DNA of 50,327 nt from an uncultured Anaeromyxobacter sp. (GTDB taxonomy: Bacteria; Myxococcota; Myxococcia; Myxococcales; Anaeromyxobacteraceae): NCBI GenBank assembly GCA_903874275.1, contig CAIQRS010000274.1, forward strand, positions 1 to 50,327. The letters are read 5' to 3'. The position numbers and the translations under genes were made by a program. Positions 29,945-38,799 of the stretch are shown in pieces (position 1 is the first letter of the stretch; each line of letters opens with the position of its first letter). The notes below the pieces were generated by a model, which was not told where the DNA came from, searched no databases, and saw only the letters and a list, made by a program, of their open reading frames with translations.

Positions 29945-30685
29945 GTGCGACGCATCGCCCTCATCCCGGCCCGGCTCGGCGCCACCCGCTTCCCGCGAAA
30001 GCTCCTCGCTCCGCTGGGTGGGAAGACCGTCATCCGCCGGACCTTCGAGGCGGTGCGGGACACCGGCCTCTTCGACGCGGTCCTGGTGGTCACCGACGCC
30101 GACGAGATCCGCGCCGAGGTGGAGCGCGCCGGCGGGGAGGCCCGCATGTCGCGGGGGCAGCACGACAGCGGGACCGACCGCATCGCCGAGGTGGTGGAGG
30201 GGCTCCCGGCCGACCTGGTGCTCAACGTCCAGGGGGACGAGCCATTCACGCGTCGTGAACCCCTGGAGCGGCTGCTCGGCGCCTTCGACGGGCCGGAGGG
30301 CGAGGGCGTGGGCGTCGCCTCGCTCATGCAGGAGCTGCACGACCCCGCCCTGATCCAGGACCCCAACTACGTGAAGGTGGCGGTCGATTTCGCCGGGAAC
30401 GCGCTCTTCTTCTCGCGCTCCCCCATCCCCTACCTGCGTGACCCGTCGGTGCGCCCCACCTTCTGGGAGCACATCGGCGTCTACGCCTTCCGCCGCGACG
30501 CGCTGCTCCGGTTCGCGCGGCTTCCGGCCGGACCGCTGGAGCGGGCCGAGAAGGTCGAGTGCCTGCGCTTCCTGGAGCACGGGATCCGCATGCGCATGGT
30601 GGCCACCGACTACATGGGCGTGGAGATCGACACGCCAGAGGACCTGCGCCGCGCCGAGCGGCTGCTGGCCGGCGGAGAGGGCTGA
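29945..30685 (+). CDS. kdsB: CMP-Kdo / CMP-8-amino-Kdo synthetase (3-deoxy-manno-octulosonate cytidylyltransferase)
   Basis: The 246-residue protein matches KdsB: ALIPARLGATRFPRKLLAPLGGKTVIRRTFE, VTDADEI, HDSGTDRIAEV, LNVQGDEPF, ALFFSRSPIPY, HIGVYAFRRDALLRF, and VEIDTPEDL. It activates Kdo with CTP for lipid A core assembly. Because the next two genes make the 8-amino sugar Kdo8N, this copy may prefer Kdo8N, as the KdsB next to kdnAB in Shewanella does; the sequence alone does not prove that preference. The GTG start follows TAGGAT by 10 nt. The frame upstream of 29945 overlaps the cytochrome gene and is rejected. Confidence 0.92.
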   Translation: MRRIALIPARLGATRFPRKLLAPLGGKTVIRRTFEAVRDTGLFDAVLVVTDADEIRAEVERAGGEARMSRGQHDSGTDRIAEVVEGLPADLVLNVQGDEPFTRREPLERLLGAFDGPEGEGVGVASLMQELHDPALIQDPNYVKVAVDFAGNALFFSRSPIPYLRDPSVRPTFWEHIGVYAFRRDALLRFARLPAGPLERAEKVECLRFLEHGIRMRMVATDYMGVEIDTPEDLRRAERLLAGGEG

Positions 30686-30695
30686 AGGAGAGAAC

Positions 30696-31769
30696 GTGCA
30701 CAAGAACCTGAAGCAGGTGGGGCAGGTGATGTTCGGGCGCGGCGCCCTGGGGCAGCTCGACGCCGTCCTGGCCGACAACCGGCAGGGGACGGCCCCGGTG
30801 GTGTTCCTCGTCGATCACGTCTTCCAGGACCGGCCCGAGTTCGTGGCCCGGATCCCGGTGCGCGGCCGCGACCGGATCTACTTCGTGGACACCACCCACG
30901 AGCCCAAGACCGGCGACGTGGACTCGCTGCGGGACCGGATCCGGGCCGAGCTGGGAAAGGTCTCCGGCCTGGTGGGCGTCGGCGGCGGGTCCACCATGGA
31001 CCTCGCCAAGGCGGTGGCCCTCATGCTCACCAACCCCGGCTCCTCCCAGGACTACCAGGGGTGGGATCTCGTCCAGGTCCCGGGCGTATTCAAGGCCGGC
31101 GTGCCCACGCTCTCCGGGACCGGCGCCGAGGTGTCGCGCACCGCGGTGCTCATCGGGCCCACCAAGAAGCTGGGGCTCAACTCCGACTACACCCCGTTCG
31201 ACCAGGTGCTGCTCGACCCCGACCTGCTCGAGGGGGTGCCGGAGCGGCAGCGCTTCTTCACCGGGATGGACTGCTACATCCACAACGTGGAGTCGCTGCA
31301 GGGCCGGGCCATGAACTCCTTCGCCCGCGCCCACGCCGAGAAGTCCCTCGACCTGTGCCGGGAGGTCTTCCTGGAGAGGGACAGGTGGGACGGGGACTCG
31401 GACGAGAAGCTCATGATGGCCTCCTGGATGGGCGGGATGTCCATCGCCTACTCGCAGGTCGGCGCCGCCCACGCCATGAGCTATGGCCTGGGCTACGTGC
31501 TGGGGACGCACCACGGTGAGGGGAACTGCATCGCCATGCAGGTGCTCGAGGAGATCTACCCGGAGGGCGTTCGCGACTTCCGGAAGATGCTCGAGAAGGC
31601 CGGCGTGGAGCTCCCCCCGGGCCTGACGGCCGGTCTTCCGCCCCAGAAGCTCGACAAGATGATCGAGGTCTCGCTCGGCATGGCGCCGCTCTGGCAGAAC
31701 GCGCTGGGCGACGACTGGAAGCGCCAGATGCCCCCGGAGCGGCTGCGCGGGCTCTACCAGCGGATGTAG
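30696..31769 (+). CDS. kdnB: Kdo 8-oxidase, iron-containing alcohol dehydrogenase family
   Basis: The 357-residue protein is an Fe-ADH family member (GVGGGSTMDLAKA, TLSGTGAEVSRTAVL, the metal site Asp/His set in FFTGMDCYIHNVES and HAMSYGLGYVLGTHHGEGN). KdnB of Shewanella oxidises C8 of Kdo to an aldehyde, which KdnA then aminates. Length and context between kdsB and kdnA make this assignment firm by synteny. GAAGGAGAGAAC precedes the GTG at 30696, and it lies 10 bp after kdsB. Confidence 0.88.
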   Translation: MHKNLKQVGQVMFGRGALGQLDAVLADNRQGTAPVVFLVDHVFQDRPEFVARIPVRGRDRIYFVDTTHEPKTGDVDSLRDRIRAELGKVSGLVGVGGGSTMDLAKAVALMLTNPGSSQDYQGWDLVQVPGVFKAGVPTLSGTGAEVSRTAVLIGPTKKLGLNSDYTPFDQVLLDPDLLEGVPERQRFFTGMDCYIHNVESLQGRAMNSFARAHAEKSLDLCREVFLERDRWDGDSDEKLMMASWMGGMSIAYSQVGAAHAMSYGLGYVLGTHHGEGNCIAMQVLEEIYPEGVRDFRKMLEKAGVELPPGLTAGLPPQKLDKMIEVSLGMAPLWQNALGDDWKRQMPPERLRGLYQRM

Positions 31770-31778
31770 GAGGCTTTC

Positions 31779-32969
31779 ATGCCCGGCTACGAGATGTGGG
31801 GCGCCGAGGAGCGGCGCGAGGTCGAGGAGGTGCTCGAGACCGGCATCCTCATGCGCTACGGATTCGACGGACCGCGCCAGGGGCGGTGGAAGGCCCGCGA
31901 GCTCGAGGCCGCACTCTGCCAGCGCACCGGGGCGGCCCACGCGCAGCTGGTCTCCTCCGGCACGGCGGCGCTGACCACGGCGCTGGCCGCGCTCGGTGTG
32001 GGGGCGGGCGACGAGGTGGTCATGCCCACCTTCACCTTCGTGGCCAGCTTCGAGGCGGTCCTCTCGGTGGGGGCCACGCCGGTGCTGGCCGACGTGGACG
32101 ACACGCTCACCCTCTCGCCGGCCGCGGCCCGCGCCGCGGTGACGCCGCGCACCCGGGCGATCATGCCGGTGCACATGTGCGGCTCCATGGCCGACCTGGG
32201 CGCGCTCGAGGAGCTCTGCCGCGAGAAGGGGCTGGTGCTGCTGGAGGACGCCTGCCAGGCCACCGGCGGGAGCTGGAAGGGGAGGGCGCTCGGCACGGTG
32301 GGCAAGGCCGGTTGCTACTCCTTCGACTTCGTGAAGACCATCACCTGTGGTGAAGGGGGCGCCATCGTCACCTCCGACGCCGAGGTGGCCCGCCGCTGCG
32401 ACCAGTACGCCGACCACGGGCACGACCACATGGGCGTGGACCGCGGCGCCGACCTGCACCCGGCGCTGGGCTACAACTTCCGCATCTCCGAGCTGCACGC
32501 GGCGGTGGGGCTGGCCCAGATCCGCAAGCTCGACGGCTTCCTCACGATCCAGCGGAGGAACAAGCGGGCGCTGCGCGAGGCGCTCTCCGCCGTCCCCGGC
32601 GTGACCTTCCGGCGCATCCCCGACCCCGACGGCGACAGCGCGTCGTTCCTCTCCTTCTTCCTGCCCGACGAGGCGCGAGCCAGGGCGGCGGCGAAGGCCA
32701 TGCAGGGCGCCGGCATCCCGGCCATGTACTGGTACGACAACAACTGGCACTACCTGCGCCGCTGGGACCACTTGAAGACCGCGTCGTCCTTCTCGCCGCT
32801 TCCCGCAAGCGTCCGCGAGGCGCTCGGCAAGCTGGCCAGCCGCCCGTTCCCGGCCTCCGACGCGGTCATGTCCCGGGCCATCTCGACCCCCATCGCGCTC
32901 TCCTGGACCGCCGAGCAGCTGGCCGAGCGGGCGGCGAAGCTGGCCGCGGCGGTGCGTTCGGCCGCGTAG
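31779..32969 (+). CDS. kdnA: 8-amino-3,8-dideoxy-manno-octulosonate (Kdo8N) transaminase
   Basis: The 396-residue protein is a DegT/DnrJ/EryC1-type sugar aminotransferase: SSGTAALTTALAALGVGAGDEVVMPTFTF, ILP-like MPVHMCGSMADL, LLEDACQATGGSWKGR-LGT, the PLP lysine in CYSFDFVKTITCGEGG and YNFRISELHAAVG. It transfers an amino group to the C8 aldehyde made by KdnB, giving Kdo8N. A TAGGAGGCTTTC site precedes the ATG, which is 9 bp after kdnB. Its 3' end is convergent with the glycosyltransferase gene 10 bp away. Confidence 0.9.
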   Translation: MPGYEMWGAEERREVEEVLETGILMRYGFDGPRQGRWKARELEAALCQRTGAAHAQLVSSGTAALTTALAALGVGAGDEVVMPTFTFVASFEAVLSVGATPVLADVDDTLTLSPAAARAAVTPRTRAIMPVHMCGSMADLGALEELCREKGLVLLEDACQATGGSWKGRALGTVGKAGCYSFDFVKTITCGEGGAIVTSDAEVARRCDQYADHGHDHMGVDRGADLHPALGYNFRISELHAAVGLAQIRKLDGFLTIQRRNKRALREALSAVPGVTFRRIPDPDGDSASFLSFFLPDEARARAAAKAMQGAGIPAMYWYDNNWHYLRRWDHLKTASSFSPLPASVREALGKLASRPFPASDAVMSRAISTPIALSWTAEQLAERAAKLAAAVRSAA

Positions 32970-32979
32970 GGGTCCGGCG

Positions 32980-33978
32980 CTACGCTGCGCCGCCGCCGAG
33001 CAGGGCCCGCGCCTCGGCGATCACCGCGGCGGAGGTCAGCTCGGTCATGCAGCGGTGGTGCCCCTCGGGGCAGCGGTCCCCGCCGTGGTTGGAGCAGGGC
33101 GCGCAGTCGATCGGGAAGCGCACGGCACGTCCGGGAGGCTGGGGCCCCCAGCGATCCGGCGAGGTGGGGCCGAAGACGGCCAGCGCCGGGGTCTGGACCG
33201 CCCCGGCCAGGTGGACCGGCCCGGAGTCGCAGGAGACGAGCAGGTCCACCGAGGCGAGCCCGGCCGCCAGCCCCTCCACCGGCAGGCGGGTGAGGTCGCC
33301 GGCCACCGGGGCGTGCAGCGCGGCGCGGAAGCGGGCCAGCGCCTCGGCGTCGCCCGGCCCGCCGGCCAGGATGACGCTCGCCCCCGTGTCCGCCAGCGCG
33401 TCGGCCACCTCGGCGAAGCGCTCGGCGGGCCAGAGCTTGGTGGCGCGGCTCGCCCCGGGCGCGAAGGCCACCCGGGGCCGGGAGGCCCCGGCGAGCGCCA
33501 CGGCGGCACCGTCGCGGGCCGAGCCGGAGAGCGCCACCTGGGTCTTCCCGGCCCGCTCGATCCCCAGCGGGCGGAGCACGTCGGCGTAGATCCGGGTGGC
33601 GTGGGGCCCGTGCGCCGGAGGGTCCACGCCGAGGAGCGCCAGCGCCGCCTGGCCGGGCGTCCGGCGCCGGAAGACCAGTTGCCTTCGTCCCGCGGCCCGG
33701 GCCACCACCGCGCTCTTCACCTTGTTCTGGAGGTCGATGGCGAGGTCGAAGCGCCCCCGCAGCTTGACCGCGAGGTTCACCGCCTCGCGGATGCCGCCCC
33801 GGCCGAGCCGGTGGACCCGATGCACGTCCGGGAGCCCCTCGAGGAGCGGAGCGTAGGCCGGCGAGGTCACCCACTCGATGCGGGCCCCGGGGAAGCGCGC
33901 ACGCAGGGGCTCGAGCACCGAGGTGGAGAGGACCACGTCGCCGAGCGCGCTGTAGCGGATGACCAGGACGGAACGCAA
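32980..33978 (-). CDS. Lipopolysaccharide heptosyltransferase-family glycosyltransferase (GT9)
   Basis: The 332-residue protein has the GT9/ADP-heptose transferase layout: VLVIRYSALGDVVLSTSVLEPLRARFP, FDLAIDLQNKVKSA, the second domain with VAFAPGASRATKLWPAERFAEVA and a donor-binding part DLLVSCDSGPVHLAGAVQTPALAVFGPTSPDRWGP, then two Cys pairs near the end (CAPCSNHGGDRCPEGHHRC). It would extend the LPS core and fits the neighbouring Kdo8N genes. The TTG at 33978 is chosen because RSVLVIRYS must start here and TATCAT ends 8 nt upstream. It is divergent from oxyR, sharing an operator. Confidence 0.88.
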   Translation of the reverse strand: MRSVLVIRYSALGDVVLSTSVLEPLRARFPGARIEWVTSPAYAPLLEGLPDVHRVHRLGRGGIREAVNLAVKLRGRFDLAIDLQNKVKSAVVARAAGRRQLVFRRRTPGQAALALLGVDPPAHGPHATRIYADVLRPLGIERAGKTQVALSGSARDGAAVALAGASRPRVAFAPGASRATKLWPAERFAEVADALADTGASVILAGGPGDAEALARFRAALHAPVAGDLTRLPVEGLAAGLASVDLLVSCDSGPVHLAGAVQTPALAVFGPTSPDRWGPQPPGRAVRFPIDCAPCSNHGGDRCPEGHHRCMTELTSAAVIAEARALLGGGAA

Positions 33979-33986
33979 CGGGGGGA

Positions 33987-34005
33987 ATGATAGGCTGTGG
34001 CTATC
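33987..34005 (+). promoter_or_regulatory. OxyR-type operator over two divergent leaderless promoters
   Basis: GATAG (33989-33993) and CTATC (34001-34005) form an inverted repeat with a 7-nt spacer, the ATAG-N7-CTAT half of the OxyR consensus. The minus-strand -10 TATCAT (33987-33992, 8 nt before TTG 33978) and the plus-strand -10 TAGGCT (33991-33996, 9 nt before ATG 34006) both lie in it. OxyR bound here would be expected to repress both genes. Confidence 0.65.
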
Positions 34006-34995
34006 ATGAGGTCCAGCCACCATCCCTTCACCCTGCGGCAGCTCCAGTACGCCGCGGCCGTCGCCGACCTGCGCTCCTTCCGGCGCGCTGCCGAGCGCTG
34101 CCACGTCTCCCAGCCCTCCCTCTCCGCCCAGGTCATCCAGCTCGAGGAGCAGCTGGGCGTGCGGCTCTTCGAGCGCGCCTCGCGGAGGGTCATCGTCACG
34201 GCCGCCGGCGAGGCGGTGCTCACCCGGCTTCGCCGGCTGCTGCTCGAGGCCGACGACCTGGCCGACAGCGTCCGGCAGCTGGGCGACCCGCTGGCGGGCA
34301 CGCTGCGTCTCGGCGTCATCCCCACCGTCTCGCCCTACCTGCTCCCCGAGATCGTCCCGGAGCTCCGGGCGCGCCACCCGGCGCTCTCGGCGGTCTGGGT
34401 CGAGGACAAGACCGAGAACCTGGTCGAGGCGCTGCGGGAGGGGCGGATCGACGGCGCGCTGCTCGCGCTCGAGGCGCCGCTCGGGGAGGTGGAGAAGGAG
34501 GTCGTCTGCGAGGATCCGTTCGTGCTCGCGGCCCCTCCCGGCCACCCGCTCGTCCAGGCCAGCGCCCCGGCGACGCCCCAGGAGCTCCGCGGCGCCGGGT
34601 TCCTGCTGCTCGACGACGGCCACTGCTTCCGCGACCAGGCGCTCACCTACTGCGCGTCGGCGCGAGGGCGCGAGCTCGACTTCCGCGCCACGAGCCTGGC
34701 CACGCTGGCCCAGATGGTGGCCGGGGGCGCGGGGATCACCCTGCTCCCGCGCCTCTCGCTGCCGGTGGAGAACCGGCGCTCCGAGCTCGCGGTGCGGAGG
34801 CTCGCGAGCCCGTCGCCTCATCGGACGCTGGCGCTGGTCTGGCGGCCGCGCTCCCCCCTCGGTCCGGCCCTGCGGCGCCTCGCCACGACCATCCGGGAAG
34901 CCTGCGCCGGCGCCGAGCCCCGGCTGGAGGCGGCCGTCGGGGGGAAGGCCCCGGTGCGCTCACGGGGCGTGGCCGGAAGGAGGGGCGCCCCGTGA
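34006..34995 (+). CDS. oxyR: Hydrogen-peroxide-sensing regulator OxyR
   Basis: The 329-residue LysR-family protein has the N-terminal winged helix (TLRQLQYAAAVADLRSFRRAAERCHVSQPSLSAQVIQLEEQLGVRLFERA) and, in the regulatory domain, LLDDGHCFRDQALTYC with C207 and C216. This matches the redox pair C199/C208 of Escherichia coli OxyR with the same 9-residue spacing. A GATAG-N7-CTATC site lies directly over its promoter, which suggests autoregulation. The ATG at 34006 is preferred over the GTG at 33997 since the -10 box would otherwise overlap the start. The C-terminus carries a ~20-residue basic tail. The GTGA end couples it to the phospholipase D gene. Confidence 0.93.
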   Translation: MRSSHHPFTLRQLQYAAAVADLRSFRRAAERCHVSQPSLSAQVIQLEEQLGVRLFERASRRVIVTAAGEAVLTRLRRLLLEADDLADSVRQLGDPLAGTLRLGVIPTVSPYLLPEIVPELRARHPALSAVWVEDKTENLVEALREGRIDGALLALEAPLGEVEKEVVCEDPFVLAAPPGHPLVQASAPATPQELRGAGFLLLDDGHCFRDQALTYCASARGRELDFRATSLATLAQMVAGGAGITLLPRLSLPVENRRSELAVRRLASPSPHRTLALVWRPRSPLGPALRRLATTIREACAGAEPRLEAAVGGKAPVRSRGVAGRRGAP

Positions 34996-36398
34996 CCCTT
35001 GCCTGGCTGCTTCCGGTCCTCAACTGGTCGATCCGGCTCTGGGCCATCTGGGCCGTGCCGCGCCGCCGCTCGCCCAACGCGGCCCGGGCCTGGCTGCTCC
35101 TCATCCTGGTCCAGCCCATCGTCGGGCTGGCGCTCTACTCGATCTTCGGGAGGGCCTACCTGCCGGCCCGGCGGAAGGAGCGCCAGAAGCTGGCGAGCGC
35201 CTTCATCCAGGAGGCGCGGGAGGCGGCCGGTTCTCCCTCGGTGGTCCAGGTGGAGGGGGACCGGGCAGCGACGGCCGTCCTGGCCGGCAAGCTCGGGGCC
35301 TTTCCGGTCCTGGGCGGCAACCGGGCCGAGCTCATCGACGACTACCCCGTCGCCATCGACCGGATGGTGGCCGACATCGACGCGGCGCGGGAGAGCGTCA
35401 GCCTGCTCTTCTACATCGTGGAGCCGGACGCCACCGGGCGGCGGGTGGCCGACGCGGTGCTGCGCGCGGCGGGGCGCGGTGCCGTCTGCAAGGTGCTGAT
35501 GGACGGGATGGCCTCCGCGCCCGGGTTGAAGAAGCTCGCCCCCGCGCTTCGCGCCGGCGGCGTGGAGGTGATCTCGCTCCTCCGCCCGGGGACGCGCCGG
35601 GCGCGGCGCGACCTCCGCAACCACCGCAAGATCGCCGTCCTCGACGGGCGGGTCGGGTACACCGGCTCGCAGAACCTGGTGGACGCGTCCAACTACAAGG
35701 GGCGGGGGCTCACCTACGAGGACCTCATGGTCCGGGTGGAGGGGCCGGTGGTCCGGCAGCTCGAGGCCATCCTCCTCACCGACCGCTACCTCGAGACCGG
35801 GAAGGGGCTCGACGGGTCCACGAGGCTCCCGGACCTACCCGAGGTCGGCCTCGTGAGGGCCCAGGCCCTGCCCAGCGGACCGACCTACGAGGTGGAGAAC
35901 AACGAGCGGACCTTCGTCCAGATGCTCTACGGGGCGCGCGAGCGGATCGTGGTGACCACGCCCTACTTCGTCCCCGACCGTCCGTTCGTGGACGCCATGC
36001 AGGCCGGTGCCGCCCGCGGCCTGGACGTGCACCTCGTCACGCCGGAGCAGGCCGACCAGTGGCTGGTCCGCCTGGCCCAGGAGTCCTACTACGCCGAGAT
36101 GCTCGCCGCGGGCGTGAAGATCCACCTCTACCGGCCGCGCTTCCTCCACGCGAAGCACATCTCGGTGGACGACGACCTCTGCGCCATCGGTTCGTCCAAC
36201 CTCGACATGCGCTCCTTCGCCTTGAACGAGGAGGACATGCTCCTGTTCTACGACAGGGGAGTGGCCGCCGACCTGAGGCGGATCCAGAACCGCTACCTGC
36301 GCGACTCCATCCCCCTCGACCCGAAGGACTGGGAGAAGCGCCCCGCGCTGCGCCGGACGGCCCAGCAGCTCGCCCGGCTGGTGGACTCGGTCCTCTAG
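34992..36398 (+). CDS. cls: Cardiolipin synthase-type phospholipase D protein
   Basis: The 468-residue protein has two N-terminal transmembrane helices (WLLPVLNWSIRLWAIWAV and AWLLLILVQPIVGLALYSIFG), then two HKD motifs: HRKIAVLDGRVGYTGSQN (H211) and HAKHISVDDDLCAIGSSN (H386). This is the plan of ClsA-type cardiolipin synthases that join two phosphatidylglycerols. The GTG at 34992 overlaps the oxyR stop in GTGA, so the two are translationally coupled; control of cardiolipin by peroxide sensing would be an unusual link and is inferred from that overlap. Confidence 0.9.
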   Translation: MTLAWLLPVLNWSIRLWAIWAVPRRRSPNAARAWLLLILVQPIVGLALYSIFGRAYLPARRKERQKLASAFIQEAREAAGSPSVVQVEGDRAATAVLAGKLGAFPVLGGNRAELIDDYPVAIDRMVADIDAARESVSLLFYIVEPDATGRRVADAVLRAAGRGAVCKVLMDGMASAPGLKKLAPALRAGGVEVISLLRPGTRRARRDLRNHRKIAVLDGRVGYTGSQNLVDASNYKGRGLTYEDLMVRVEGPVVRQLEAILLTDRYLETGKGLDGSTRLPDLPEVGLVRAQALPSGPTYEVENNERTFVQMLYGARERIVVTTPYFVPDRPFVDAMQAGAARGLDVHLVTPEQADQWLVRLAQESYYAEMLAAGVKIHLYRPRFLHAKHISVDDDLCAIGSSNLDMRSFALNEEDMLLFYDRGVAADLRRIQNRYLRDSIPLDPKDWEKRPALRRTAQQLARLVDSVL

Positions 36399-37333: not shown

Positions 37334-37627
37334 ATGGCGACCAAGGCCGAGTGGTTCCGCTACAACACCGAGCGCGCCGGGCCGAAGAAGCCGAAGGCGG
37401 TGAAGAAGGCCAAGCCCGGGCCGAAGCCTCACAACCTGGCCGAGAAGGACCGCAAGGCGCTCTACGCCTTCGAGGACCATGCTCCGGGAACCCGCCCCTC
37501 GCGCAAGTCCACGCGCAAGGGCTCGAACCGCCAGAAGACCGACGCGAAGGCCCGCCTGACGCGGGCCAAGTCCGAGGTGGTGCCGCGGAAGCCGGTGCGT
37601 CCCCGCACCAGCGGTGGAAAGCGATGA
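37334..37627 (+). CDS. Small, very basic protein of unknown function
   Basis: The 97-residue product is rich in Lys, Arg and Pro (GPKKPKAVKKAKPGPKP, then STRKGSNRQKTDAKARLTRAKS) with an aromatic start (AEWFRYNTERAG). It has no membrane helix and looks like a nucleic-acid-binding or disordered protein. A strong TGGAGG site precedes the ATG. Its stop and the next start share ATGA, so it is coupled to a lipoprotein gene despite the unlike properties of the two products. Confidence 0.6.
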   Translation: MATKAEWFRYNTERAGPKKPKAVKKAKPGPKPHNLAEKDRKALYAFEDHAPGTRPSRKSTRKGSNRQKTDAKARLTRAKSEVVPRKPVRPRTSGGKR

Positions 37628-38799
37628 GGCGCCCCATGGCCGTCTCGATCGGAAGTTCCCTGGCGCGCGGCGGATGGCTGCTCGCGCTGGTCGTCGTCGT
37701 CGTCGCGTCGGGCTGCAGCTCGACCGCGACCACCTGTCCGACGGGGCAGACCTCCTGCGGCGGGGCCTGCGTGGACCTCACGTCGAACCCCCTGTACTGC
37801 GGCGCGTGCAACGTCTCCTGCAACGCCGGGGCGAGTTGCTCCGGCGGGAGCTGCGCCTGCCCGGCCGACAAGCCGGCCACATGCGGGCTCGTCTGCGTGA
37901 ACAAGCAGACCGACCCCGCCAACTGCGGGACGTGCGGTCACAACTGCGGGCTCGGGACCTGCGCGGCCGGTGCATGCGTCTGCAACACCACGCCGGCGAC
38001 GGTCGCGCTCTGTCCGAACGACCCGGCCACCGGCAGCTGCGTGGACAAGGCCACGAGCGGGGCCAACTGCGGGACCTGCGGGAACGTCTGCGTTCCAGCC
38101 ACGACCTGCTCGACCGGGACCTGCCAGTGCCTCCCCCCCAACACCACCTGCCAGGCCGGGACCCCGTCGGAGGTCTGCACCAATACCCAGACCGACCCCG
38201 CCAACTGCGGATCCTGTGGCCGCGCCTGCGGCTCCGGATACACCTGCGCGGCCGGCGGCTGCCAGCTGGTCTGCGCCACGGGCCTCAGGAACTGCAACGG
38301 CGTCTGCGTGGACACCCGGATCGACCCCGCCAACTGCGGCGCCTGCGGCAACCCCTGCGGCTCGGGCAAGAGCTGCGTGAACAGCGTTTGCCAGGCGGCC
38401 TGCACGACCTTGACCTGTGGCGGCGTCTGCTGCCAGGCCCCGACGGCCGGGAACGCGTGCTGCCCGACGGCCGGGTCCGAGATATGCCCGAACGTGCACA
38501 AGAACTTCATCGGAACCGAGGTGCAGACCTACTACACCTGCACGCCCTCCTACACCTACGACGTCCTGACGGCCTCGTTCGCATCGGGCACGTGGGCCGG
38601 TGATTTCGGCCTGCCCATCTCCTCGCAACGGGCCTGCCCCGACACGGGTGGCTCGCTCTGCGTGGTCCGCCAGAAGGGGTTCGGCGTCACCGCCGCCTGC
38701 GGGGTCTGGTGCTACGAGGGGCCGCTGGCCGCAACCCTCCAGGTGACCCAGGGCTACGCCTGTCCGTGCCCGACGCAGCAGCAGGTCGACTGGTACTGA
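37624..38799 (+). CDS. Cys-rich repeat lipoprotein (myxobacterial type)
   Basis: The 391-residue protein has a lipoprotein leader (VVVVASGC-SS) and then at least five units of about 40-45 residues following the pattern C-x-x-VCV...DPANCGxCGxxCxxG...C. Such repeats are common in myxobacterial surface proteins, where the Cys probably form disulfides. The last ~120 residues are a different, Tyr/Phe-rich domain (VQTYYTCTPSYTYDVLTASF) with a few Cys. Surface adhesion or binding is a guess. The ATG at 37624 overlaps the upstream stop; one at 37636 is an alternative. It ends 7 bp before the convergent DsbA-like gene. Confidence 0.7.
   Translation: MRRPMAVSIGSSLARGGWLLALVVVVVASGCSSTATTCPTGQTSCGGACVDLTSNPLYCGACNVSCNAGASCSGGSCACPADKPATCGLVCVNKQTDPANCGTCGHNCGLGTCAAGACVCNTTPATVALCPNDPATGSCVDKATSGANCGTCGNVCVPATTCSTGTCQCLPPNTTCQAGTPSEVCTNTQTDPANCGSCGRACGSGYTCAAGGCQLVCATGLRNCNGVCVDTRIDPANCGACGNPCGSGKSCVNSVCQAACTTLTCGGVCCQAPTAGNACCPTAGSEICPNVHKNFIGTEVQTYYTCTPSYTYDVLTASFASGTWAGDFGLPISSQRACPDTGGSLCVVRQKGFGVTAACGVWCYEGPLAATLQVTQGYACPCPTQQQVDWY

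Follow-up and report, generated by a model that had tools for sequence, protein, structure and literature searches.

The short region between oxyR and a divergent glycosyltransferase gene of the GT9 family in an uncultured Anaeromyxobacter sp. carries an exact OxyR-type dyad. This site is most likely a well-supported but ordinary oxyR auto-operator, cut down to a single dyad and standing in a changed neighbourhood. It had been predicted to be an operator shared by oxyR and the glycosyltransferase, through which peroxide sensing would directly set the expression of a lipopolysaccharide (LPS) gene; comparison with other oxyR loci does not support the shared operator, and direct setting of an LPS gene by peroxide does not follow. 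A rubrerythrin gene elsewhere in the genome is most likely a better candidate for an OxyR-induced target than GT9. The window is the whole stretch of DNA analysed (50,327 nucleotides); it belongs to a 285-contig assembly, and the two congeners compared with it (G001 and G003) are metagenome-assembled. Features are listed in Table 1.

Table 1. Features at and around the oxyR locus and at the rubrerythrin gene (window positions unless another locus is named).
Feature	Position	Strand	Basis or remark
kdsB-kdnB-kdnA cluster (LPS sugar 8-amino-Kdo)	29945-32969	+	converges on GT9; present in both congeners
GT9 heptosyltransferase-like gene, TTG start	32983..33978	-	PF01075
Short stretch where about 38 bp of the two congeners are missing from the window	33979..33989	.	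congener comparison
OxyR-type dyad, ATGATAG-GCTGTGG-CTATCAT	33987..34007	.	exact; read as oxyR auto-operator
Sigma-70-like promoter for GT9, TGGACC-N17-TATCAT	33987..34015	-	consensus match only
oxyR, LysR-type peroxide sensor, Cys207/Cys216	34006..34995	+	HTH_1 and LysR_substrate domains
Cardiolipin synthase gene (cls)	34992..36398	+	TIGR04265, above cut-off
Three-element OxyR-type site	locus L033, 1501-1526		upstream of rubrerythrin at 1630-2046

The oxyR-GT9 junction

The start codons of GT9 (TTG, 33978, minus strand) and oxyR (ATG, 34006, plus strand) are separated by 27 bp (33979-34005), as originally reported. The TTG start is conserved across the window species and its two congeners, and the oxyR start is backed by the absence from relatives of the alternative GTG at 33997. 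The dyad consists of the arms ATGATAG (33987-33993) and CTATCAT (34001-34007) around the spacer GCTGTGG, with its ATAG-N7-CTAT core at 33990-34004. It is exact, but it occupies only the oxyR-side part of the gap that it was said to fill, and its right arm extends into the oxyR ATG. OxyR sites are ATAG-n7-CTAT inverted repeats (PMC5002191), a form that the junction site has; the claimed match to half of the OxyR consensus is correct, the second half-site being absent. A pattern search allowing 0-1 mismatches finds ATAG-N7-CTAT nowhere else in the window, and a first-order Markov model gives an expectation of 0.009 exact cores per window and about 2e-6 in the gap.

The oxyR product contains both a LysR helix-turn-helix and a substrate-binding domain, and its best solved relatives are OxyR structures. 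Cys207 and Cys216 lie inside GHCFRDQALTYC and align with Cys199 and Cys208 of E. coli OxyR (GHC-RDQA--FC). The NCBIfam OxyR model PRK11151 is by far the best model for the protein, the runner-up being a Francisella OxyR model; the score of 263 bits falls below an equivalog cut-off of 329 bits. That threshold governs naming, is adjusted to enterobacterial-type members and does not stand for a functional property. The OxyR-family domains and aligned redox cysteines support the earlier identification of the protein as a true OxyR-family member.

In the junction a single sigma-70-like promoter was found, TGGACC-N17-TATCAT for GT9, whose -10 lies within the left dyad arm. Both congeners have a similar TSGACC-N17-TATCAC and, in addition, a TTGCC-N18-TACAAG that is outside the dyad and 7-8 nt upstream of the GT9 start; the latter is absent from the window. 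Its -10 is so near the start that the transcript would be almost leaderless, and the promoter calls are thus held loosely. Two -10 boxes had been placed inside the dyad: the minus-strand one fits, but the plus-strand TATCAT (34002-34007) was rejected as an oxyR -10 because its transcript would start downstream of the oxyR ATG.

Conservation of the dyad among oxyR orthologues

The region upstream of oxyR was compared among 51 distinct orthologues from Myxococcota, Acidobacteria and other groups. With up to one mismatch allowed, 39 of the 51 have a dyad no more than 80 bp from the oxyR start; with up to two allowed, 46 do. The dyad is conserved beside oxyR in many genera. The divergent neighbour, identified for 35 orthologues, is a catalase (12), an AhpC-type peroxiredoxin (11), KatG (8), Dps (1) or GT9 (3); peroxide-defence genes make up 32, and examples of the neighbours were confirmed by Pfam. 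Only the window species and its two congeners have GT9 in this place. The dyad is exact in both congeners, so the original prediction, which depended on its being kept alongside this gene pair, holds on that point.

The ATAG of the dyad lies at -16 from the oxyR ATG in all three GT9-bearing species. GT9, however, shifts: the GT9-oxyR gap is 27 bp in the window species and 66 and 65 bp in the congeners, where GT9 stands 38-39 bp further off. The roughly 38 bp missing from the window include the TTGCC-N18-TACAAG sequence. Because the distance from dyad to oxyR is fixed while the neighbours vary and the distance to GT9 changes, the dyad appears to belong to oxyR and to be older than the GT9 neighbour. 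Since it tracks oxyR and not GT9, it is best read as an ancestral oxyR auto-operator, not as a purpose-built shared switch.

Most orthologues carry a second upstream element, with consensus CCAAgACAtcgTTtggAT, whose AGAC..GGAT positions precede ATAG..CTAT by 22 bp, in the register of an OxyR tetramer site. This half-site was not found upstream of the dyad in the window genus (profile scores of -27.6, -28.2 and -19.7, against a random mean of -36.8 and a 95th percentile of -20.1). Most other orthologues score +21 to +49, values that are partly circular because the profile was built from these sequences. Likewise, the four elements at 11-bp spacing that make up a full tetramer operator were not found at the window oxyR. 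Thus, the oxyR site is a half-operator and not a full OxyR tetramer site, and the comparison indicates that the window genus has lost the second half-site, which lay on the divergent-gene side, together with the divergent peroxide-defence gene.

A site of the ATAGGCATTGCCTATCG type recurs in many Myxococcaceae genomes. In one example (L027, genome G050), it directly adjoins a second LysR gene, the product of which is 37% identical to the window OxyR, and it is possibly another LysR auto-operator.

Origin of the gene neighbourhood

GT9 scores below the cut-offs of specific heptosyltransferase models. Its orthologues in other genera of the family (60-63% identity; 14 genomes, being those with enough upstream sequence) are co-directional behind a coding sequence and are not beside oxyR. 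The gene upstream of them is a putative Kdo transferase, and on one partial contig the GT9 orthologue is followed by lpxK-like and acyltransferase-like sequences, all of these putative names being read from DNA. In the window genus GT9 has left that setting; its place beside oxyR is most likely more recent than the dyad. On its other side lies the kdsB-kdnB-kdnA cluster, in which KdnA and KdnB give near-full-length matches to the solved structures 5k8b (1.5e-147) and 5k8c (1.2e-126), respectively. The window also encodes, on the plus strand at 37614-38799, a cysteine-rich protein with repeated NCGTC/NCGSC-type motifs.

The start of cls and the stop of oxyR share 4 bp (GTGA), an overlap kept in the three species; cls was not found after oxyR in any other orthologue compared. 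The GTGA coupling of a cardiolipin synthase is real as a conserved overlap, but it joins cls to oxyR on the plus strand and not to the glycosyltransferase. Any link between OxyR and cls would act through oxyR autoregulation. The literature searched contained no link between OxyR and a heptosyltransferase or cardiolipin synthase operon, and no study of OxyR DNA sites in Anaeromyxobacter.

A fuller OxyR-type site at rubrerythrin

Each of the four genomes in the genus has ATAG-N7-CTAT-N7-ATAG, with zero mismatches, ahead of a rubrerythrin gene (product assigned to PF02915 by Pfam). This corresponds to three of the four OxyR elements at 11-bp spacing, and a conserved GATGTGTTGCG then follows. G001 and G003, the two congeners with oxyR, have two exact dyads each, found only at oxyR and upstream of rubrerythrin. 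The window genome has four: the same two, one that precedes a methyltransferase gene by 16 bp (C45) and one at C163; neither of the extra dyads recurs in the congeners, and both are treated as chance. The counts of 4, 2 and 2 (window genome, G001 and G003) compare with 1, 1 and 2 for reversed-pattern controls and 0.9 expected per 5 Mb; they are near chance, and the argument thus rests on recurrence at the same two genes. A three-element search with 3 mismatches gave fewer matches than its reversed control and is informative only for the exact rubrerythrin sites. Catalase (PF00199) was not found in the window genus. The AhpC relatives in the genus were also considered and set aside: those closest to oxyR-linked AhpC are about 40-43% identical and have no dyad nearby.

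Interpretation

The reading that we favour, with a probability of roughly 0.78, combines these elements. An OxyR dimer would hold the dyad, the oxyR-proximal recognition site of the ancestral operator, overlapping the oxyR start region. By analogy with E. coli OxyR, which represses its own gene under both oxidising and reducing conditions (PMC5002191), this should limit the level of oxyR and hence of the translationally coupled cls. With the second half-site and the divergent gene for peroxide defence apparently lost and GT9 now upstream, OxyR would induce rubrerythrin from its fuller site, and GT9 would be mainly a neighbour. OxyR could plausibly affect GT9 to some extent, because the promoter-like -10 of GT9 overlaps the dyad; as this is the only such -10 in the window, OxyR would block GT9 and not activate it, so that possible control of GT9 would most likely be repression. 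That peroxide directly sets LPS gene expression does not follow, given that the E. coli protein autorepresses in both redox states.

Direct control of both GT9 and oxyR-cls by dyad-bound OxyR, tying peroxide to envelope make-up, would account for the GT9-oxyR-cls order and dyad being kept in three species, and for a dyad arm forming the window's only sigma-70-like GT9 -10, with a similar sequence in both congeners. We consider it improbable, however: the dyad predates the pairing of the two genes and keeps to oxyR, there is no second half-site, the congeners have another promoter-like sequence nearer GT9 and outside the dyad, and the promoter calls are consensus matches only. Also unlikely is a broader rewiring of OxyR in the genus, in which the auto-operator would now also govern GT9 by repression and cls by coupling to oxyR, and an OxyR-controlled rubrerythrin would have taken over peroxide removal. 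ATAG-N7-CTAT also fits the general LysR form T-N11-A, and further LysR proteins are encoded in the genome; yet recognition by some other LysR regulator, or a palindrome arisen by chance, is very improbable for a sequence that adjoins oxyR orthologues in many genera, matches the OxyR consensus and has so low a chance expectation in the gap.

Comparison with known systems

An oxyR auto-operator as the favoured reading implies that arguments from divergent promoters can mislead, since here the operator would have been inherited with its regulator while the neighbour is recent. It also predicts a conserved oxyR-cardiolipin synthase overlap, and an OxyR-rubrerythrin link within the former delta-proteobacteria lineage. 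In the metal-reducing delta-proteobacteria of an earlier study, OxyR was absent and peroxide control of rubrerythrin was assigned to PerR (PMC545781). A peroxide sensor is thus assigned to rubrerythrin in both cases, but the sensor is PerR there, whereas an OxyR-type site precedes the gene here.

The E. coli oxyR-oxyS operator (PMC5002191, citing Toledano 1994) resembles the window locus in having ATAG-n7-CTAT by the oxyR promoter, a divergent gene and an OxyR of the same redox-cysteine type. The window locus differs in having one dyad only, without a second half-site in the 22-bp register, in its divergent gene being a glycosyltransferase, and in the overlap of the dyad with the oxyR start codon. 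The oxyR loci of Myxococcota and Acidobacteria with a divergent catalase, KatG or AhpC gene have the same dyad in the same place relative to oxyR; they keep the upstream half-site and the peroxide-defence gene, whereas the window genus appears to have lost both and has GT9 instead.
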